Source: Stenotrophomonas sp. MMGLT7
GTDB taxonomy: Bacteria > Pseudomonadota > Gammaproteobacteria > Xanthomonadales > Xanthomonadaceae
Direction of reading: 5' to 3'
Length of the DNA: 64,000 nucleotides
NCBI RefSeq assembly: GCF_021168555.1
Contig: NZ_JAJOZS010000003.1
Span: 186,001-250,000, forward strand
The notes beneath the pieces are model-generated. The model had not been told where the DNA came from, made no database searches, and saw only the letters and a program-made list of their open reading frames with translations. Made by a program: the position numbers and the translations under genes. Below are positions 22,840-32,526 of the stretch, one piece after another; positions within the stretch are counted from its first letter, which is position 1; every line of letters starts with the position of its first letter.

Positions 22840-24237
22840 TCAGACCGAAGCGCCGGGCGGAGCCAGCGGCAGTTCCAGGATCGCCGACAGGCCGCCGCCG
22901 GGACGGTTGCGCAATTGCAGCGTGCCGCCGTCGCGCTGCGCGCACTCGCGCGCGATCGCCAGCCCGAGGCCGATGCCCCCGGTGCGGCGGCTGCGCGACT
23001 GCTCGCCGCGGTAGAACGGTTCGAACACCGCGTCCAGTTCCCGCTCGGGTATGCCGGGACCGTCGTCGGCGATTTCCAGCACGGCCTTGCCGTCGCGGCA
23101 GGCGATGCTCAGCGTCGCCCCGCCGCCGTACTTCACCGCGTTGTCGAGCAGGTTGCCGACCGTCCGCGCGCAGCGGACCGCGCCTGCCATGCAGCGCGGC
23201 GAGGGGCCGGCCTGCAGACGTATGCCGGCGTCGTGACCGCGCGTGCGGATGCACTCGGCCACGCACTGGCGCAGGTCCAGCGGCGCGGCGGCCTCGCCCT
23301 CGCGCGAGGCCGCCGAATACCCCATCAACTCATCGACCATGCGCTCGATGCGCCGCACGTCGGCGACCATGGCCTGGCGCTGTTCCGCTGCAGCGTCCAC
23401 CATCTCGATGCGCAGCCGCAGCCCGGTCAACGGCGTGCGCAGGTCGTGGGCGACCGCCAGCAGCATGCGCATGCGCTGTCCGACCTGGGCGAGCAGGCGC
23501 GCCTGCATGGCGTTGAGCGCCTCGGCCACCGCGACGATCTCGCGCGGGCCGCGGGCGGGGAAACCCACCTGTGCCACGCCGTCCTGGCCGACCTGGCCGG
23601 CGGCGTCTGCCAGCGCCCTGACCGGCCCGGTCAGGCGCCGCGCCACCCACCACACCAGCGGCACCAGCACCAGCAGGCCGCCGAGCAGGAAGGCCAGGCC
23701 GCCGGCCCGCCAGCGCAGCAGCCACGACCGGTCCGGCCCCACCACCAGCCAGCCGTCCGGCGTGCGCAGCGCCGCCTCGAACGCCGGCTGCGGCAGCTGC
23801 GCGCCGACGTAGACCGCGACCAGCGCGTCGAGCATCCGCGGCGAAAGCGTGGACTCGATGCGAGAGCCGCCGCCATCGCGCAGCGTCACCGCGGTCACCG
23901 CCGCGCGGGTGTCGCGCTCGCCGCGGGATGTCCATCGATAGGGGCGTACGCGCACGTCCGCCAGCGGCCGGCCGAGTTCGCGCGCCAGGATCGCCGCCAG
24001 TTCCCGGCTGCGCTCGTCCGCAGGGAACGGCGGTTGCGGGCTCAGCCGCCGGCGCAGCCCCAGGTCCTCGGCGCGGGCCTGGTCGCGCAGGCCGGCCAGC
24101 GCCTGCGGCACGGTCATCATCGGCAACGGCGGCGGCCACAGCAGCACCGCCGCCATCGCGATCGCCTGCGATGCCAGCACCGCCGCCAGTGCCAGCGCGC
24201 AGACCTGCACCAGGATCGGCAGCGGCAACCGCCTCAT
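22840..24237 (-). CDS. Sensor histidine kinase of an OmpR-type two-component system
   Basis: A 465-aa inner-membrane kinase. The first membrane segment is at about 8-35; a periplasmic sensor region spans about 36-195; the second segment is at about 200-220 (LAFLLGGLLVLVPLVWWVA). HAMP follows (RRLTGPVRALADAAGQV). The H-box reads LLAVAHDLRTPLTGLRLRIEM. The ATPase domain has NLLDNAVKYGG, IADDGPGIP and GGIGLGLAIARE. It overlaps the response-regulator gene by 4 bp (ATGA), so both are made together. The signal sensed is unknown; the divergent protease gene is a possible target. Confidence 0.93.
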   Translation of the reverse strand: MRRLPLPILVQVCALALAAVLASQAIAMAAVLLWPPPLPMMTVPQALAGLRDQARAEDLGLRRRLSPQPPFPADERSRELAAILARELGRPLADVRVRPYRWTSRGERDTRAAVTAVTLRDGGGSRIESTLSPRMLDALVAVYVGAQLPQPAFEAALRTPDGWLVVGPDRSWLLRWRAGGLAFLLGGLLVLVPLVWWVARRLTGPVRALADAAGQVGQDGVAQVGFPARGPREIVAVAEALNAMQARLLAQVGQRMRMLLAVAHDLRTPLTGLRLRIEMVDAAAEQRQAMVADVRRIERMVDELMGYSAASREGEAAAPLDLRQCVAECIRTRGHDAGIRLQAGPSPRCMAGAVRCARTVGNLLDNAVKYGGGATLSIACRDGKAVLEIADDGPGIPERELDAVFEPFYRGEQSRSRRTGGIGLGLAIARECAQRDGGTLQLRNRPGGGLSAILELPLAPPGASV

Positions 24238-24947
24238 CGGCCGCGCCCGCCATGGAAGCGGTAGCCGCGGCCGCGCACGGTCTCGATGAGGCCGTCCGCC
24301 CCGCGCCCGGCGAGCTTGCGCCGCAGGCGGCTGACGGCCAGGTCCACCGCCCGGTCGAAGCTCTCGGCCACCGGCCCGCGGGTCAGGTCGAGCAGGCGGT
24401 CGCGGCTCAGCAGCCGTCCCGGGTGGGCGGCGAAGGCCTCGAGCAGGGCGAACTCGCCCGCCGTCAGCGCCAGCGGCTCGCCGTCCGGGTCGAACAGCCG
24501 CTGTTCCTCCGGTTCCAGCCGCCAGCCGTCGAACACGATCGCCCGCCGCGGCGGCGACGGCCGCGTCCTGCCTTCGCGGCGCAGGATCGCGCGCAGGCGG
24601 GCAAGCAGCTCGCGCGGCTCGAACGGCTTGGCCAGGTAGTCGTCCGCGCCGGTTTCCAGGCCGACCACGCGGTCCATCGCCGACCCCAGCGCGCTGAGCA
24701 TCAGCACCGGCGTGCCCGACTGCAGCAGGCGGCGACAGATCGACAGGCCGTCCTCGCCGGGCAGCATCAGGTCCAGCACCACCAGGTCGACCGGCTGCAG
24801 CGCCATGAGCCGGTCCAATGCCTGCCCGTCGGCGGCCAGCTCCACCGCATAGCCGTTGCGCGACAGGTAGTCGCCGAGCGCGCAACGCACGCTGTCGTCG
24901 TCGTCGACCACCGCCACGCGCGCCGATACGGTCCCGGGCATCTTCAT
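24234..24947 (-). CDS. OmpR/PhoB-family response regulator
   Basis: A 237-aa regulator. The receiver domain has acidic VVDDDDSV, phosphoacceptor in VVLDLMLPGEDGL, and KPFEPRELLARL. The winged-helix DNA-binding domain shows LTAGEFALLEAFAAHPGRLLSRDRLLDLTRG and FDRAVDLAVSRLRRKLAG ... ETVRGRGYRF. The start at MKMPGTV gives a normal-length protein; the upstream extension is not conserved-looking. It is the first gene of the operon with the sensor kinase and is divergent from the metallopeptidase-retropepsin gene, 126 bp away. Confidence 0.94.
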   Translation of the reverse strand: MKMPGTVSARVAVVDDDDSVRCALGDYLSRNGYAVELAADGQALDRLMALQPVDLVVLDLMLPGEDGLSICRRLLQSGTPVLMLSALGSAMDRVVGLETGADDYLAKPFEPRELLARLRAILRREGRTRPSPPRRAIVFDGWRLEPEEQRLFDPDGEPLALTAGEFALLEAFAAHPGRLLSRDRLLDLTRGPVAESFDRAVDLAVSRLRRKLAGRGADGLIETVRGRGYRFHGGRGR

Positions 24948-25073
24948 ACGGCCAGCTTGTCCGTGTTGCGTATCCGGATTGTGTCGGCAATGCATCGGCG
25001 CGACAACGCGCGGACAGCACGCCGATAGCCGCGGCATCCAGGATCGATCCATCCCCACGCTTCCAGGATCGCC

Positions 25074-26615
25074 ATGAACCTACTGCGCCCCCTCGCCACC
25101 GCCGCGCTGCTCGCGCTGGCCCCTTTCGCCCATGCCGACGAATCGCTGTGCGATGCCGCGCGGAACGCACTTGCGCAGCCGGCCGCGCCGCACTGCGCGC
25201 AGACCGCGCACGGGATCGCCCTGTCCGGCGATGCCGGACAGGCACGGATGCTCGCCTGGCTCGGCGAAGACGGCGCCAAGCGGTTCGCCCGCCACTTCGA
25301 CCGCGAGCCGGCGCGCTACGCGATCCTGGAGATGGAGCGCGACGAGCTCGACACGCAGCGGGAGCAACGGCTGCGCCAGGCCGGCTTCGCGGTCGTGCTG
25401 CAATGGCGCTCCCACGCCCGGTTCGTCGCCGACTACCTGGACTCGATCGCCCGCTCCAGCAAAGCCGCCGCACGCGCCGCGGGCCTGGACGAGGCGCGGG
25501 CACGCGAGAAGAGCGAGCAGACCCGGCAATCGCAGCAGGCGAAGCTGACGCCTTACTCCTTGTCGCGCCTGGACGCGAGCATGGTGGCCCACGAACTGGG
25601 GCATCGCTGGTACGTGGAAGCCTTCTGGCCCGGGGTTCACAGCGAAGGCCACTACGGCGGCCCGGGACCGGACTGGATGGACGAGACCGCCGCCGTGCTG
25701 ATGGAGCCCGGCGACACCGCCGAGGAGCGCCGCGGGCAGTTCCGCGACCTCTACCGCGGGCGTGCCGCAGGCTTCTTCGGCAGCTACCGCTACCCGCAGT
25801 TGATCGACCTGCCCACCTTCCTCGCCAGCGACCATCCGAACCGGCGGCTGAAACTGCGCGGCGGCGTACATGCCATCGCCTCCCCGCAGGCCGCGCCCGA
25901 CATCGCCGCGGCCAGCGCCTACTACCTGCAGGCGCGGCTGTTCGCCGACTTCCTGCTCGACCGCAGCGACGGCAAGCCCGTGTTCGCCGCGATCGCCGGA
26001 GCGCTTGCGCGCGGGGACGGCTTCGAGCGCTGGCTGGCCGAGGCCGGCAGCGACCACGGCCTGCCTTCCGACGTTCCCGCGCTGACGCGCGACTGGCACG
26101 ACTGGCTGCATGCGCGCTTCGGTCCGCCCGCGGCATCGGCAGCGGCAGCGGCAGCGGCAATGACGCTGCCCTTCGTTCGCCATGGCACCGGCCACCTCAT
26201 CGTGCCGGTGCAGATAAACGGGATCGAGACCCGGATGGTCGTCGACACCGGGGCCGGCCGCAGCGTCGTCGATGCAGGCCAACGCGCCCGGCTGGCGCTG
26301 CGGGCGGATGCATCGGCGGGTTCCGGCGCCACCGCCACCGCCACCGGGGCCGGCGGCGGTGGCCTGGCCATCGCGACATCGGGCGGGAACGCCCTTTCCG
26401 TCGGCGCCGTCTGCGAGGACGGCGTCGCGTTCGGGATCATGGACCTGTCCCACGTGGTTTCCGCGCTGAAGCGGACCGGCGTCGAGGTCTCCGGGGTGCT
26501 GGGCAGCGATTTCCTCCACCGCCACGGCGCGGTGATCGACTACGCCCGAAGCGAGATCCGCTTCAGGCGCGCGCCTGCACGCGCTGCCGTCGCCGCTGCC
26601 GCTGCTTCGCCATGA
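25074..26615 (+). CDS. Secreted HExxH metallopeptidase-like / retropepsin-like fusion protein
   Basis: A 513-aa exported protein (signal peptide MNLLRPLATAALLALAPFAHA). The N-terminal part has a zinc-peptidase motif HELGH (H173, E174, H177), with a candidate third ligand Glu204 in DWMDETAA. A poly-Ala linker (about 361-373) leads to an aspartyl-protease-like domain: VPVQINGIETRMVVDTGAGRS with catalytic Asp391, then VLGSDFLHRHGAVIDYARSEIRFR. The metal-peptidase assignment is from motif only. The fusion is unusual; neither substrate nor activity is known. Its divergent neighbour is a two-component operon. The last 180 bp are duplicated at 32329-32526. The C-terminus is low-complexity Ala. Confidence 0.75.
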   Translation: MNLLRPLATAALLALAPFAHADESLCDAARNALAQPAAPHCAQTAHGIALSGDAGQARMLAWLGEDGAKRFARHFDREPARYAILEMERDELDTQREQRLRQAGFAVVLQWRSHARFVADYLDSIARSSKAAARAAGLDEARAREKSEQTRQSQQAKLTPYSLSRLDASMVAHELGHRWYVEAFWPGVHSEGHYGGPGPDWMDETAAVLMEPGDTAEERRGQFRDLYRGRAAGFFGSYRYPQLIDLPTFLASDHPNRRLKLRGGVHAIASPQAAPDIAAASAYYLQARLFADFLLDRSDGKPVFAAIAGALARGDGFERWLAEAGSDHGLPSDVPALTRDWHDWLHARFGPPAASAAAAAAAMTLPFVRHGTGHLIVPVQINGIETRMVVDTGAGRSVVDAGQRARLALRADASAGSGATATATGAGGGGLAIATSGGNALSVGAVCEDGVAFGIMDLSHVVSALKRTGVEVSGVLGSDFLHRHGAVIDYARSEIRFRRAPARAAVAAAAASP

Positions 26616-26634
26616 GACCGCAGCAGGCGAGCAG
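26435..26634 (+). repeat. Direct repeat, left copy (3' ends of protease and MFS genes)
   Basis: About 200 bp repeated in the same orientation at 32329-32526. The core 26502-26582 matches 32395-32475 with two differences in 81 bp. The left copy contains the intact protease 3' end; on the minus strand it also encodes a stub (LLACCGLMAKQRQRRRQRVQARA without a start) related to the C-terminus of the MFS protein at 32456. Confidence 0.85.
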
Positions 26635-26789
26635 ACCTTGCGCCCGCCCTGAACGAAGACGCGGAACGCTCATTCTCCCGTCCCTGCGCATCTGCGGATG
26701 AGAGGCCGCCTCGCTTCTTCGCCGGAATGCTCCCAACGGGAACGGGACAGTTCGCAAGGCCCGCCGGCATCCTCCCTGTCCCGCCGTGG

Positions 26790-26818
26790 CCGGCCCGCGT
26801 CAGGCGGCGGCGGGCCGG
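26790..26818. terminator. GC-rich hairpin after the first Gfo/Idh gene
   Basis: Stem CCGGCCCG / CGGGCCGG lies just beyond the stop of the leftward Gfo/Idh gene. No U-run follows, so it would be a weak or rho-assisted terminator. Confidence 0.4.
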
Positions 26819-26830
26819 GAAGGGCACTTC

Positions 26831-27841
26831 CTATTCATACGACACCTTCACCGGCAGGCCGGTATCGAGCGACCGCTGCGCGGCGATGCAGCAGCGCATC
26901 GCGTTCAGCGCCTCCTCGCCGGTGCAGACGATCGGCTTGTCGTTCACTACCGAGTCGATGAAGCTCGCCTTCTCGAAGATATATGCCTGCTTGAAGCGAT
27001 TGAGGTAGTAATCGAGGGGCTTCCTGAGGGAGATCGCCTCGTCGTTGTAAAGCTCGACGGTCGATTCCGTGACGTTCTCGGCCTTCAGCATTCCCTTCTC
27101 GCCAAAGACCTCCACCCGTTGATCGTAGCCATAGACGGCCTTCCTGCTTTCGTCGATCAGCCCGAAGCCATCCTTTTCCAGCTTGCACGACGCCGTCAGG
27201 GTGTCGATATCGTTCAATTCGGCCAGTCCGGGGTCGATGAGGGTGGTTCCCTGAAGATAGATCTCGGTGATCCGGGATCCTGCCTGGTAGCTGACCATGT
27301 CGAAGTCGTGCGCCGCAAAATCCTGGATCAGGCCGCCGGAGTTCCGGATGAAGTCGTAGGGCAGGACAAACGGATCGCGAGCGACCACCCGGACGATGTG
27401 CGGCCGTCCGATCTCGCCGGCCTTGACGCGCTCGTGGATATCGCGGAACTGGGGATCGAACCGCCGATTGAAGCCGATCTGCAGCTTGACGCCCTGTTGC
27501 CTGACGAAATCGAGCGTCGCCTCGCATTCCTCGATGCTCTCGTCCTTGCCCAGCGGTTTCTCGCAGAAAATATGCTTCTTCGCCGCGGCCGCCTTGCGTA
27601 TATGCTCGATATGCTGGCCCGATGGCGTGAATATGAAGATGGCCTCGAAGTCCCCGTATCCGAGCAGCGCATCGTAATCGGTGAACGTGTGCTCGACGCC
27701 CGACAGGTCGACATGATCGCTCAGTTCGTCCAGGCGGGGATCCGACACCGCGACGATGTCGACGCTGTCCATCTGCTTCAGCTGCGCATAATGCATGGCG
27801 CCATTCGTGCCCAAGCCGGCTACTGCACATTTCAGTTTCAT
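26831..27841 (-). CDS. Gfo/Idh/MocA-family oxidoreductase (inositol 2-dehydrogenase-like), copy 1
   Basis: A 336-aa NAD(P)-dependent sugar or cyclitol dehydrogenase. The Rossmann fold is near the N-terminus (KCAVAGLGTNGAMHYAQL). EKPLGKDESIEECEAT is the family EKP motif; GFNRRFDPQFRDIHERV and the catalytic-site AAHDFDMVSY follow. Length is normal. Codon use is less GC-biased than the surroundings (for example runs such as ATATGCTCGATATGC), a sign of transfer. It faces away from the transporter-dehydrogenase-porin genes and may act on the same polyol. Exact substrate unknown. Confidence 0.88.
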   Translation of the reverse strand: MKLKCAVAGLGTNGAMHYAQLKQMDSVDIVAVSDPRLDELSDHVDLSGVEHTFTDYDALLGYGDFEAIFIFTPSGQHIEHIRKAAAAKKHIFCEKPLGKDESIEECEATLDFVRQQGVKLQIGFNRRFDPQFRDIHERVKAGEIGRPHIVRVVARDPFVLPYDFIRNSGGLIQDFAAHDFDMVSYQAGSRITEIYLQGTTLIDPGLAELNDIDTLTASCKLEKDGFGLIDESRKAVYGYDQRVEVFGEKGMLKAENVTESTVELYNDEAISLRKPLDYYLNRFKQAYIFEKASFIDSVVNDKPIVCTGEEALNAMRCCIAAQRSLDTGLPVKVSYE

Positions 27842-28828
27842 CTCAGCCACCTGTCTTGCAGTCAAATGAACTTGCCTGGACACCGGGGCGGGATGTCCTC
27901 GAAAGGGGGAGCGTCATCGCGCCAGGCAAGCACCAGGCCGGTGCTGCGCGCCGATGACGGCATCGACTGGGGCGGGAAACGATGCGCCTGGCTGCATCGG
28001 GTCGCATCCGGCTGCCGGGCCCGGTTTCCCGGTTCGGGAAAACCCTGAAGCCGGGCTTGGAGGACGCTGGCATCTCGTGTCTCTTATTCCCGGACTGTCG
28101 ATACCTTTCAACCCATTGTATGCAGCGCCACGCCGGCCGCGTGGCGTTGCGCTTTAATGTCGCGTCGACCGTCGAACGCCCTGATTCCCATCAGGACGAC
28201 CATGCCTGTCCAGGCATCCCGGATAAACCTGGCGCACCCGGGGACATGACCCGCCCCGGGTGCGCCCCTCGGTCCTACTTCCTGCCAACCGAATCCGGCA
28301 CCGCCCCTCGACATTATGTGTCACGCGACACTGGGTCGCGTCTGCGCGAGCCATCCGGCAAGGGAATGAGCGCACCGATATCCAGTGCAGCCGTGATCGA
28401 ACGAGCCGGCAGCTACGCTCCGTCCCGACCACGTACGCGCCGCTCCGCACACGACGGTTCACGGGCGACGCCGGAGCACACCCGCGTAGTCCTCCGTACG
28501 CGGTAAAACCCCGAAGAATCGACCCCTGTACGCCGAACCATAATCCGGAAAATCGGTATTCACTCCCGTCATCGGTGCGTTCTGGATTGCGGCAAATGGG
28601 GCAGCGAAAACAACCTGGAAAACCAACCGTCCGGCTCAATTACCGGTACTTTCCTGTGCCAGACGGACGCAGGCGGCGCATATTTTAAAAACCCGAATTA
28701 TTTTCCCAAGAAACCATCACGTCAATGAATACCGTCAAGGACGTCCGCTGCGCATAGGCATCCAATGGCAGCGTAGGCCAGATATACCCGCGCCCCCGTT
28801 TTACTCGACTAGTAACGGAGCTTCGCCA
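27842..28828. other. Long intergenic region between divergent inositol-type genes
   Basis: Nearly 1 kb without a believable gene: small frames on both strands are Arg/Ser-rich and not conserved. It is less GC-rich than the genome. It contains a 13-bp GC-rich hairpin (28231-28266) and, at the right end, an element shared with 36429-36531. The promoters of both divergent transcripts must lie here. It could hide a small RNA or a decayed regulatory gene; nothing proves either. Confidence 0.5.
28231..28266. repeat. Perfect 13-bp hairpin GGCGCACCCGGGG / CCCCGGGTGCGCC
   Basis: A perfect 13+13 inverted repeat with a 10-bp loop in the long divergent intergenic region. No T-tract follows either arm. 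It could be a terminator with rho, a protein site or part of an RNA. Confidence 0.6.
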
Positions 28829-28830
28829 AT
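28719..28830 (+). repeat. Duplicated leader element, copy A (upstream of the GRP transporter)
   Basis: Begins GTCAATGAATACCGTCAAGG and runs to the ATG of the GRP transporter gene. About 110 bp match 36429-36531, including CCAATGGCAGCG and AACGGAGCTTCGCCAATG, with small gaps. The match stops at the start codon, which suggests a shared promoter or leader, or a dispersed repeat that carries a ribosome-binding site. Confidence 0.7.
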
Positions 28831-29737
28831 GGCCAGTATCCTCAACATACTGATCGGTCTCATTCCTGCGCTCGGCTGGGGTTCGCAGGGCATCGTGATG
28901 CAGAAGATCGGCGGGCGCACCGCCAACAAGACGATGGGCATGGTGCTGGCCACTCTCATCTTCGCGATAGCGGTCCTGCTCCTGCGTCCGGACGCCAGCG
29001 GCCCGCTCACCACCACCGTGCTCATGGCCGCGCTGGTCAACGGCATTCCCTGGTCGATCGGCCAGATCCTGCAGATAAAGTCGTTCGAACTGATCGGCGT
29101 CTCGCGCGCGATGCCGATCTCCACCGGCACCCAGTTGCTGGGCGCCACCGTGATCGGCGCGTTCTTCTTCCACGAGTGGACGCAGGGGTACCAGTACGGC
29201 CTCGGCATCGCCGCCCTGGTGCTGCTGGTCGTCGGCGTGTGGATGACCACCTACCGCGAGGACAAGTCCGATGTCGCCGCCGGCTCCAACATCAAGCTTG
29301 GGCTGATCATACTGCTGCTGTCCTCGGCGGCATTCGTCGCCTACGCCACGGCCGGGCGCTTCTTCCGCGTCAGCAGCTACGACCTGCTGCTGCCGCAGGC
29401 GGTGGTGATGACGCTGTCCACCCTGATCATCAGCGTGTTCATGTCCTCCCGGGAGGAGGTGTTCGACCGCGAGGTCGGCGTGCTGGGCCGCAAGACCTGG
29501 CAGAACCTGGCCACCGGCGCCTGCTTCGCGATCGCCAACTTCACCATACTGATCTCGATCGAGCGCAACGGCGTGGCGGTGGGCTGGACGCTGTCGCAGA
29601 TGAACGTCATCGTCGCCACGCTCGGCGGCATCCTGATCCTGAAAGAGCGCAAGACCCGCAAGGAGCTCGGCTACGTGCTGGGCGGCCTGGCGCTGGTCGC
29701 CATCGGCGGCATCCTGGTCGGTTTCACCAAGAGTTGA
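28829..29737 (+). CDS. GRP-family sugar (glucose/ribose-type) transporter
   Basis: A 302-aa inner-membrane carrier with ten predicted hydrophobic segments, of the GRP (glucose/ribose porter) branch of the drug/metabolite superfamily. Family features are the first helix GLIPALGWGSQGIVMQKIGG, QILQIKSFELIGVSRAMPISTGTQLLG and the C-terminal LSQMNVIVATLGGILILKERKT. It is followed 48 bp later by an inositol-dehydrogenase-like gene and an OprB porin, so a polyol or sugar substrate is likely. Translation starts at the end of the duplicated leader element. Confidence 0.88.
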   Translation: MASILNILIGLIPALGWGSQGIVMQKIGGRTANKTMGMVLATLIFAIAVLLLRPDASGPLTTTVLMAALVNGIPWSIGQILQIKSFELIGVSRAMPISTGTQLLGATVIGAFFFHEWTQGYQYGLGIAALVLLVVGVWMTTYREDKSDVAAGSNIKLGLIILLLSSAAFVAYATAGRFFRVSSYDLLLPQAVVMTLSTLIISVFMSSREEVFDREVGVLGRKTWQNLATGACFAIANFTILISIERNGVAVGWTLSQMNVIVATLGGILILKERKTRKELGYVLGGLALVAIGGILVGFTKS

Positions 29738-29785
29738 GCGGCCCCGCGCTTTTCCCATCATCGAAGAAATGAAGGAGAACAGATC

Positions 29786-30802
29786 ATGTTGAACCTCGGA
29801 GTCATCGGCTGCGGTTCCATCGGCCGCGACCACGTCGAGCGTCTCACCACCACCGTGGCCGGCGGCCGCGTCGCCGGCGTGTTCGACGTGGTGCCGGAAG
29901 CCTGCCGCAAGGCGGTCGCCGACTTCGGCCTGGACGCGGAGATATTTGCCAGCGCCGAAGCGATGATCGATTCGCCGAAGATCGATGCGCTGGTCGTGTG
30001 CTCGAAGAACGACGTCCACCTGGCGCCGCTGCTGCACGCGATCAAGATCGGCAAGAACGTGCTGACCGAGAAACCCCTCACCACCTCGGCGGCCGAAAGC
30101 CGGCAGGTGGTGGAGGCCGAACTGGCCGTCGGGCGCCGGTTCGTGCAGGTGGGCTTCAACCGCCGCTTCGACCGCGGCTACCTGCAGCTCAAGGCGATCG
30201 CCGATTCCGGCCAGATCGGCGCGCTGCTGCTGGCCAACTGCCGGCACTACAACGCGGCCCCGGCCACGTCCTACTACCGCACCGACGACGTCATACTCGA
30301 CACCTTCATCCACGAGATCGACGTGATGCACTGGCTGTTCGGCGAGAACTACGCCAGCATCGAGATGAAGCTCGGCAGGCGCAACTCGCTCAATCCCGCG
30401 CCCGACCTGGACGAGCCGCAGCTGGCCATCATCGAACTGGCGAGCGGCGCGCTGATCACCGTGGAGATCAACATCAACTGCCAGTACGGCTACGACATCC
30501 AGTGCCGCCTGGTCGGCGAGCGCGGGATCGCCAGCCTGCCCGACGTGGCCACCCCGGAGGTGCGCCTGGACGGCAGGATCTACCACGCCATCGACCCCAG
30601 CTGGACCTCTCGCTTCGTCGACGCCTACAACAGCGAGTTCCTCGCCTTCATCCACGCCACCGTGGACAAGACGCCGCTGGCCGGGCCGTCGGCCTGGGAC
30701 GGCTACGTCGCCTCGATCGCAGGCGAAGCCGCCGTGACCAGCCTGCACGAGCGGCGAAAGGTGGACATCGTCATTCCCGACAAGCCCGCGCTGTACGCCT
30801 GA
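29786..30802 (+). CDS. iolG: Inositol 2-dehydrogenase-like Gfo/Idh oxidoreductase, copy 2
   Basis: A 338-aa enzyme close to IolG, which oxidises myo-inositol to scyllo-inosose with NAD+. Features are NLGVIGCGSIGRDHVERL (nucleotide binding), VLTEKPLTTSAAESR, VGFNRRFDRGYLQLKA and TFIHEIDVMHWLFGE, which contains the catalytic His/Asp region. A good AAGGAGAA ribosome-binding site precedes the ATG. Other iol genes (iolE, iolB, iolD) are not in the window, so the substrate may instead be another cyclitol or sugar. It lies between the sugar transporter and the porin. Confidence 0.85.
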   Translation: MLNLGVIGCGSIGRDHVERLTTTVAGGRVAGVFDVVPEACRKAVADFGLDAEIFASAEAMIDSPKIDALVVCSKNDVHLAPLLHAIKIGKNVLTEKPLTTSAAESRQVVEAELAVGRRFVQVGFNRRFDRGYLQLKAIADSGQIGALLLANCRHYNAAPATSYYRTDDVILDTFIHEIDVMHWLFGENYASIEMKLGRRNSLNPAPDLDEPQLAIIELASGALITVEININCQYGYDIQCRLVGERGIASLPDVATPEVRLDGRIYHAIDPSWTSRFVDAYNSEFLAFIHATVDKTPLAGPSAWDGYVASIAGEAAVTSLHERRKVDIVIPDKPALYA

Positions 30803-30867
30803 GGCGCGCGACGCCCGCGCAACCCCGGCGCCGCCCTTCCCGGGACGGCGCCGGTCGGAGGATTCCC

Positions 30868-32178
30868 ATGAGCACCGGCACGACGCCCATCCTCGGCATC
30901 GCCCTGGCCCTGGCCATCGGCGGCCTGCCGATCCCCGTCCACGCCGCCGACGCGGACTCGCCCGTCCTGAGCGGGGACTGGGGCGGCACCCGCACGCGGC
31001 TGGAGCAGGACGGCATCGCCTTCCAGCTCGGCTGGACCAACGAGGCCGCGCACAACGCCAGTGGCGGCGAACGCCACCTGACCCGCTCGGCCGGGCAGTT
31101 CGTGCTCGGCACCACCCTGGACCTGGAAAGGCTGTGGAACTGGCGCGGCGCCAGCTTCCAGGCCACCGTCAGCAAGCGCTACGGCGAGAACCTCGGCGCC
31201 GACGCCGGCATCGGCGCCAGCCAGCTCCTGCAGGAGATCTACGGCCGCGGCCAGACCTGGTGGCTGACCCGGTTCTCGCTCGACCAGGAGCTGTGGGACG
31301 GCCGGCTGGCGCTGCGCATCGGCAAGTCGCCGGTAGGCGCGGATTTCGGCTACGACGGCTGCGCCTTCCAGAACCTCACCTTCTGCGGCGCGCCGCCGGG
31401 CAACATCGAGGGCCGCTACTGGCTGAACTGGCCGATCGCGCCCTGGGGCCTGCGCGCGCGGCTGGCGACCGGCGACCGGACCTATCTCCAGCTCGGCGTC
31501 TACCAGGTCAACTCGCGCTACACCGACGATCGCTGGGCGCGCCGCAACGGCTGGAAGCTCGACAATCCCGGTGGTACCGAGGGCGCCCTGGTCCCGGTCG
31601 AGTTCGGCTGGATGCCGCGGCCGCGCGGACTGCCCGGCACCTACAAGCTGGGCGCCTGGATCAACACCGGCGGCGGCCCGGACCTTTACCTGAACAGCGA
31701 GCGCCTGCCGCTGGCCGGCGCCGGCGGCGAGCCGCTGCAGCGCAACAACAGCTATGGCGGCTATCTGTCCATCGTCCAGCAGCTTGCCGGCGAGGCCGAC
31801 GGCAAGGGGCCGCAGCTGTTCTTCAACCTGACCAAGGCCGACCGCGCCACCGCCCGCTTCGACGGCCAGCTCGCCGTCGGCTTGATCTACCAGGGGATCT
31901 TCGATCGCCCGCGCGATTCGGCCGGCATCGCCTTCGGCGCCACCGAATCGAGCAGCCTCTACGCCCGCCACGCCCGTGCCTGGAATGCCGCCCACCCGGG
32001 CAGCGAACCGCTGGTGCCGGCCGGCGGCTACGAGAAGGTGGTCGAGGTGTTCTACGCCTGGTCGCCGCTGGCCTCGATCCGCGTGCAGCCGAGCCTGCAG
32101 TACGTCGCCGATCCCGGCGGTGCCGGCGAGCGGCATAACGCCCTGGTGCTCGGACTGAGAACCAGCGTGGCGTTCTGA
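30868..32178 (+). CDS. OprB-family carbohydrate-selective porin
   Basis: A 436-aa outer-membrane beta-barrel protein. A signal peptide (about 1-26, ending VHA) precedes the OprB signature LSGDWGGTRTRLEQDGIAFQLGWTNE. Later stretches such as LRIGKSPVGADFGYDGCAFQNLTFCG and the terminal aromatic Phe (LRTSVAF) fit the barrel. OprB porins admit glucose and related sugars. A GGAGG sequence lies 8 bp before the ATG. It closes the transporter-dehydrogenase-porin set. Confidence 0.9.
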   Translation: MSTGTTPILGIALALAIGGLPIPVHAADADSPVLSGDWGGTRTRLEQDGIAFQLGWTNEAAHNASGGERHLTRSAGQFVLGTTLDLERLWNWRGASFQATVSKRYGENLGADAGIGASQLLQEIYGRGQTWWLTRFSLDQELWDGRLALRIGKSPVGADFGYDGCAFQNLTFCGAPPGNIEGRYWLNWPIAPWGLRARLATGDRTYLQLGVYQVNSRYTDDRWARRNGWKLDNPGGTEGALVPVEFGWMPRPRGLPGTYKLGAWINTGGGPDLYLNSERLPLAGAGGEPLQRNNSYGGYLSIVQQLAGEADGKGPQLFFNLTKADRATARFDGQLAVGLIYQGIFDRPRDSAGIAFGATESSSLYARHARAWNAAHPGSEPLVPAGGYEKVVEVFYAWSPLASIRVQPSLQYVADPGGAGERHNALVLGLRTSVAF

Positions 32179-32328
32179 CCGGCGGCGGCGCCTGCCGCCG
32201 CGGATCGAGCAACGCCCGCCCTGGGCGAGGCCGGTCGCCGCCTGCCGCAGTTCGTCGATGCGCCGCCGTTGGCATGGCGGCGACGCCCGATGCGTCGGTG
32301 CCGCCGCTGGCGACGGCGTCACGCCCGC

Positions 32329-32526
32329 GATCATGGACCCGTCCACGCGGTTTCCGCGCTGAAGCGGACGACGCTGGAGTCTCTCCATGGTGCTGGCAGC
32401 GATTTCCTCGACCGCCACGGCGCGGTGATCGACTACGCCCGAAGCGAGATCCGCTTCAGGCCCGCGCCTGCACGCCTTCCCGTCGCCGCTGCCGCTGCTT
32501 CCCGGTGAGGCCGCAGCAGGCCAGCG
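32329..32526 (+). pseudogene. Decayed 3' fragment of the retropepsin-like gene (right copy of direct repeat)
   Basis: Encodes VSALKRTTLE, then GSDFLDRHGAVIDYARSEIRF, matching the C-terminus of the 25074-26615 protein, but without the catalytic DTGAG segment and with small indels upstream. Weaker similarity extends left to about 32246. On the opposite strand the same DNA encodes the C-terminus of the MFS protein. It is a remnant, not a functional gene. Confidence 0.85.

Follow-up and report, generated by a model that had tools for sequence, protein, structure and literature searches.

Architecture of the fusion gene

The window analysed here, a stretch of 64,000 nucleotides from Stenotrophomonas sp. 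MMGLT7, carries at positions 25,074–26,615 (+ strand) one open frame with an ATG start and a product of 513 aa, as the earlier note had it. The predicted protein opens with a signal-peptide-like segment recognized by eye, MNLLRPLATAALLALAPFAHA (25,074–25,136, +), continues with a zinc-peptidase-like domain of the gluzincin type (N half; residues 22–358, 25,137–26,147, +) and, past an Ala-rich linker that includes the junction (residues 352–364, 26,127–26,165, +), ends in a retropepsin-like domain (C half; Pfam match at residues 377–480, 26,202–26,513, +). Judging by its start, the product is probably exported. Divergent from the fusion gene, with 126 bp between, lie a gene for an OmpR-type response regulator (237 aa; 24,234–24,947, −) and one for a sensor histidine kinase (465 aa; 22,840–24,237, −).

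The codon-position GC of the fusion frame is coding-like throughout (GC3 0.73–1.00) and on both sides of the junction, weakening near the junction itself and in a Gly/Ala-rich stretch. The end of the N half coincides approximately with that of its relatives, and the C half starts near the point at which the mature part of its retropepsin relatives does, with about 13 Ala-rich residues separating the two. A leader for a separate retropepsin was sought in the other frames at the junction, and none was found. The coding-like GC, the retention of the motifs in homologues of both halves and a PF13650 score above the cut-off indicate that the fusion is more than a chance frame. The 513-residue protein had no match among plasmid records and gave only weak matches in a PHROGs search.

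The N half belongs to a zinc-peptidase-like family without a name

Two alignments of the N half, each including the fusion protein, were used to examine conservation: A1, which adds 21 N-half loci (leaving out the near copy L010, the broken L028 and repeats), and A3, which like A7 covers 26 of 30 named N-half loci from GTDB genomes (leaving out L075, L078, L080 and L081). His173, Glu174, His177, Pro199, Asp200, Trp201, Glu204, Glu211 and Tyr284 were invariant in all rows of both (22/22 in A1 and 27/27 in A3). The metal motif HELGH (residues 173–177; 25,590–25,604, +) and a downstream Glu, both pointed out in the earlier note, are thus kept in the relatives, the latter being Glu204 in PDWMDE (25,683–25,685, +), a candidate third zinc ligand. 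Tyr284 (25,923–25,925, +) is a candidate catalytic tyrosine.

The zinc-peptidase fold that had been expected around HELGH was found in the structure model. Modelled alone with 26 relatives, the N half reached a mean pLDDT of 90 and a pTM of 0.90, and residues 36–351 gave a confident gluzincin-like model. Foldseek alone returned no match at E up to 1e-3 for the models of the fusion protein (best E for the N-half model, 0.1), and the fold assignment came from a second look with VIA-align, in which all 50 neighbours listed were zinc metallopeptidases or mutants thereof. Lugdulysin (PDB 7bb9) was the best of these (Z 12.9, rmsd 5.1 over 246 residues), followed by clostridial collagenases (Z 10–12) and then by M1 aminopeptidases and leukotriene A4 hydrolases (mostly Z 8–10); an M61 enzyme and ACE were also among the neighbours. 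For these enzymes we take the family labels M1, M9, M30 and M61 to apply. Values of Z near 13 are borderline for mostly helical models such as this one and the Foldseek E-values are weak, so the case for this fold in the N half depends on fold and motif agreeing with each other. Lugdulysin, the collagenases and the M1 enzymes resemble the N-half model in their zinc-peptidase fold, but they are only about 10–16% identical to it in sequence, are not matched by its sequence profile and have no retropepsin domain.

Sequence databases gave the family no name. At E up to 1, no metallopeptidase family model of Pfam (e.g. Peptidase_MA_2, M1, M9 or M30) matched the fusion protein of the window; Peptidase_MA_2 touched four of the 27 N-half members scanned, with a best E of 0.0013. 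No NCBIfam model names the family, a search of the PDB sequences with the N-half profile found nothing related, and we know of no member with an established activity. On the strength of alignments and model, we describe the N half as a domain of a putative zinc-peptidase family that has no Pfam or NCBIfam name and is newly pointed out here; it would be expected to cleave peptides.

Two N-half genes (L028 and L090/L114) look broken by a shifted or interrupted frame, and the gene therefore seems to be dispensable in some species. A relative from an uncultured Aquimarina (L078), which has the same HELGH and PDWLDE motifs, belongs to the Bacteroidota, so that the family crosses phyla.

The C half is a retropepsin-like domain

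The C half matched PF13650 (Asp_protease_2, clan AA) end to end over residues 377–480 (E 5.5e-8), with 33.9 bits against a cut-off of 24.3. In a whole-genome search it scored 37.5 bits and was the sole match to this family in the genome. TIGR02281 (clan AA aspartic protease) stayed below its cut-off (24.2 vs 57.95 bits). In an alignment of the C half with 15 stand-alone relatives (A6, from which the distant L029 and L031 are excluded), the DTGAG motif (residues 391–395; 26,244–26,258, +) kept its D, T, G and A invariant in 16/16 rows. The loss of the catalytic Asp in close homologues, which the earlier note had considered a danger to its reading, was therefore not seen in any of these rows. 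The hydrophobic-GSDF segment recognized in the same note corresponds to GVLGSDF (residues 474–480), in which GSDF (residues 477–480; 26,502–26,513, +) follows the hydrophobic VL; its G and D are likewise invariant in A6. After DTGAG, the C half has a Gly/Ala/Thr-rich stretch that exceeds its counterpart in the relatives by a few residues.

Searched against the PDB, a profile of the C-half family matched solved Ddi1 and ApRick chains (E 2e-5 to 1e-3) and, weakly, some retroviral proteases. In the full-length model the C half had low confidence, because the alignment supplied held N-half relatives only. The C half is retropepsin-like, an identity that rests on the Pfam, motif and profile matches, and would be predicted to cut peptides.

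Fused here, separate elsewhere

Both halves in one frame were found only in the genome of the window among 395 genomes of the family, a set in which the window's genus has one genome. As a rule three candidates were scored per genome, and the following counts are lower bounds. In the other 394 family genomes, an N-half match was found in at least 22, a C-half match classed as strong (E of 1e-15 or below) in at least 15 and both in at least 11; a weak match in G077 (residues 14–77) was not counted, nor were C-half matches with a higher E. In every genome seen to have both halves (at least 11), the two genes are carried on different contigs or separated by 0.47 Mb or more. As these genomes all come from one genus (mainly Luteimonas), they do not represent 11 independent cases.

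A second fusion was not found in 233 genomes of the sister family, in 298 relatives (a set that overlaps the family and sister-family searches) or in the 30 named N-half loci. In the sister family, weak C-half matches lie inside long frames of 600–700 residues. The N-half profile matched three of 369 genomes in a class search and six of 398 in a phylum search, the window's genome included in both, and the N-half family is accordingly sparse. A scan of contigs with peptides of the fusion protein alone matched 39 stretches, none of which was a relative. The corresponding scan with A1 used a single pattern, P[AG]PDWLDE, which PGPDWMDE of the window does not fit and with which close relatives can be missed. 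The genome of the window has one copy of each half, a decayed fragment aside. In line with the rarity claimed in the earlier note for two protease types in one chain, no other genome searched had the fusion. A single genome is so far known to carry it, and the separate state of the halves elsewhere is a new point. No earlier report of such a zinc-protease/retropepsin fusion was found in the literature covered, to which subscription journals mostly do not belong.

The stand-alone genes of both kinds mostly have signal-peptide-like starts (by eye). Secreted retropepsins of Luteimonas and relatives (L019, L032–L041) are 36–43% identical to the C half over the alignment and share its active-site motif, but they differ from the fusion in being separate genes with their own leader and another gene neighbourhood. 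This neighbourhood is fixed in L032–L041, where it consists of an elongation-factor-P-like gene and a short-chain dehydrogenase (by eye). The stand-alone N-half genes of Luteimonas and relatives (L043, L047–L051, L065–L077) tend, also by eye, to lie near a threonine dehydrogenase-like gene and its partner ligase, a neighbourhood that differs from the two-component one described below.

A conserved two-component neighbourhood

The receiver and winged-helix domains of the regulator (Response_reg, E 1.4e-25; Trans_reg_C, E 2.9e-21) lie beside a HisKA/HATPase kinase, all with Pfam scores above cut-off, which assigns the pair to the OmpR type. The kinase has about 140 residues between two hydrophobic stretches (by eye), followed by HAMP (E 1.1e-7), HisKA (E 5.6e-9) and HATPase_c (E 7.3e-25) domains. 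The pair lies on the − strand, which bears out the divergent placement described in the earlier note, and the same arrangement recurs elsewhere. Clustering of neighbouring genes placed a kinase-regulator pair beside stand-alone N-half genes at five loci, in Sphingomonas sp. R647 (L052), in Brevundimonas (L053, L055 and L057) and in a MAG labelled Bordetella (L056). The regulators at all five are 59–62% identical to that of the window, and the kinases are 36–42% identical at the four readable loci (L052, L055, L056 and L057), the L053 kinase being masked in its record. Comparison with four relatives showed the kinase core to be conserved and the periplasmic segment much less so. The layout is alike in all six loci, divergent with about 120–150 bp between. 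The N-half genes of the five loci share the catalytic residues, the layout and a direct repeat with the window and differ from the fusion in having no retropepsin domain. At the other 25 of the 30 named N-half loci, no kinase-regulator pair was found within the stretch examined.

OmpR-type regulators bind direct repeats of an 11-bp kind. A repeat of this form, GTATC-N5-TGTGTC, is present between the divergent genes (24,970–24,985, +; pattern match) and is a candidate regulator site. The pattern RTRTC-N5-TKTGTC occurs once in the window (0.05 expected) and once at each of the five other loci, likewise in the intergenic region, a count that is not independent, since the pattern was derived from the same six sequences. 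Among 114 loci it was found in eight, namely the five two-component loci and three copies of the window's own locus. Genome-wide, two sites were found vs four for a reversed control pattern, and we therefore claim no regulon. When the Sphingomonas regulator was compared with the genome of the window, the window's regulator was the best match at 61%, by a small margin over the next paralogue (56%).

The recurrent divergent layout and the shared repeat give the sensor link comparative support. As far as gene order and sequence similarity can indicate, the kinase-regulator-peptidase module is conserved, which is a new point, and the regulator probably controls the divergent protease gene. The cue of the kinase may be stress or envelope damage, in line with the stress- or envelope-controlled expression suggested earlier.

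Origin of the module and rearranged surroundings

In a maximum-likelihood tree of 31 rows, which includes 25 of the 30 named loci, the N half of the window fell within a set of 11 mostly alphaproteobacterial sequences (Sphingomonas, Novosphingobium, Brevundimonas; support 95/91) and apart from the remaining Lysobacteraceae sequences. This grouping, together with the shared two-component neighbours, suggests a transfer of the kinase-regulator-peptidase module between classes and a gain of the retropepsin in this lineage.

At 32,276–32,525 (+) the window has a decayed duplicate of the fusion gene's 3′ end (26,382–26,632), with a shifted frame. It corresponds to the last ~250 bases of the gene (215/253 alignment columns identical), lies 5.9 kb away, constitutes the second own-genome match and possibly represents the border of a duplicated or inserted segment. 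It also overlaps the 3′ end of a convergent MFS gene. The DNA between gene and duplicate (26,633–32,275) has a GC content of 0.66, vs 0.73–0.75 for the neighbouring genes, and encodes two Gfo/Idh/MocA oxidoreductases, a PF06800 sugar transporter and an OprB porin; it looks like an inserted sugar-use cassette. Neither the cassette nor the window's FUSC-like and MFS genes were found in the relatives' loci examined. The region around the fusion gene has undergone rearrangement.

Proposed function and alternative explanations

We propose that the product of the fusion gene is a bifunctional protease, exported and most likely periplasmic, which is under two-component control and arose by in-frame addition of a retropepsin to an older kinase-regulator-peptidase module. 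We consider this reading to stand about an even chance of being correct. The N domain would act as a zinc endopeptidase of the gluzincin type, with zinc bound by His173, His177 and Glu204, water activated by Glu174 and Tyr284 assisting. Retropepsins need two chains per active site (PMC12239564), so that the fusion protein would be expected to dimerise: the C-terminal domain would pair with that of a second chain to build its active site, giving a whole with two zinc sites and one aspartic site. The kinase would sense a periplasmic or membrane cue, and the regulator would set expression by binding to the intergenic 11-bp direct repeat. The older module, also found in Alphaproteobacteria, would consist of the zinc protease with its two-component system; a secreted retropepsin, normally a separate gene, would have been joined to it in frame in this lineage, placing both enzymes under one control and in one compartment. 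Export, catalysis, dimerisation and regulator binding we infer from what is known of the respective families; for substrate and signal, too, the reading goes beyond the observations.

Known secreted retropepsins offer a partial parallel. RloA of Pseudomonas is, like the C half, a secreted clan-AA protease with a DTG active site, and RloA2 of P. aeruginosa is in a predicted operon with the CreBC two-component system, which may be compared to the two-component link in the window (PMC12239564). Unlike the fusion, RloA stands alone with no zinc protease attached; the likeness is one of description. No RloA chain appeared by name among the PDB profile matches of the C half.

Several other explanations were weighed against a bifunctional protease. 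One half alone might be catalytic and the other a dimeriser or substrate-binding module, so that the protein would not be truly bifunctional. Retropepsins being obligate homodimers (PMC12239564), the domain would be a ready dimeriser, and the slight lengthening of the Gly/Ala/Thr-rich stretch after DTGAG points the same way; the catalytic residues are, however, kept in both halves despite ~57–75% divergence from the relatives, and we regard this explanation as unlikely, though deserving serious weight. The intact state of both active sites argues against treating the fusion as a mistake in sequence or assembly, or as a transient event in a single strain, in which two genes were joined at a repeat with no lasting function. 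Such an event would fit the occurrence in one genome, the position of the junction within an Ala-coding GCAGCG-type repeat and the rearranged region with its decayed copy of the gene end 5.9 kb away. Yet the frame is coding-like on both sides of the junction, no other frame there supplies a leader for a separate retropepsin, and the genome contains no second retropepsin copy, all of which makes an error or accident very unlikely.

The protein could also serve purposes other than envelope upkeep. As an exported digestive enzyme it would feed on outside protein, with the two-component system as a nutrient sensor; the nearest folds among the matches listed are indeed those of secreted collagenases and lugdulysin, and a sugar-use cassette adjoins the gene. 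The cassette nevertheless looks unrelated to the fusion gene, given its lower GC and its absence from the relatives' loci examined, and secreted Pseudomonas retropepsins are needed for hypo-osmotic tolerance (PMC12239564), which leaves a digestive role rather improbable. A more elaborate version of the bifunctional reading, and a highly doubtful one, is that the retropepsin pairs the chains and trims the linker in the manner of a retroviral polyprotein, while the sensor kinase controls the protease and possibly receives feedback through its periplasmic segment, which would be open to cleavage. If true, this would amount to a cellular protease that combines two unlike catalytic chemistries and becomes active on dimerising.

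Proteins joined by gene fusion often work together. The fusion described here ties an exported zinc-peptidase family without a name, which extends from Proteobacteria to Bacteroidota, to the secreted bacterial retropepsins, about whose substrates little is known. The fused gene provides one construct in which both chemistries could be assayed and separately switched off, and the conserved kinase-regulator-peptidase layout would offer a direct route to the signal to which the protease responds.
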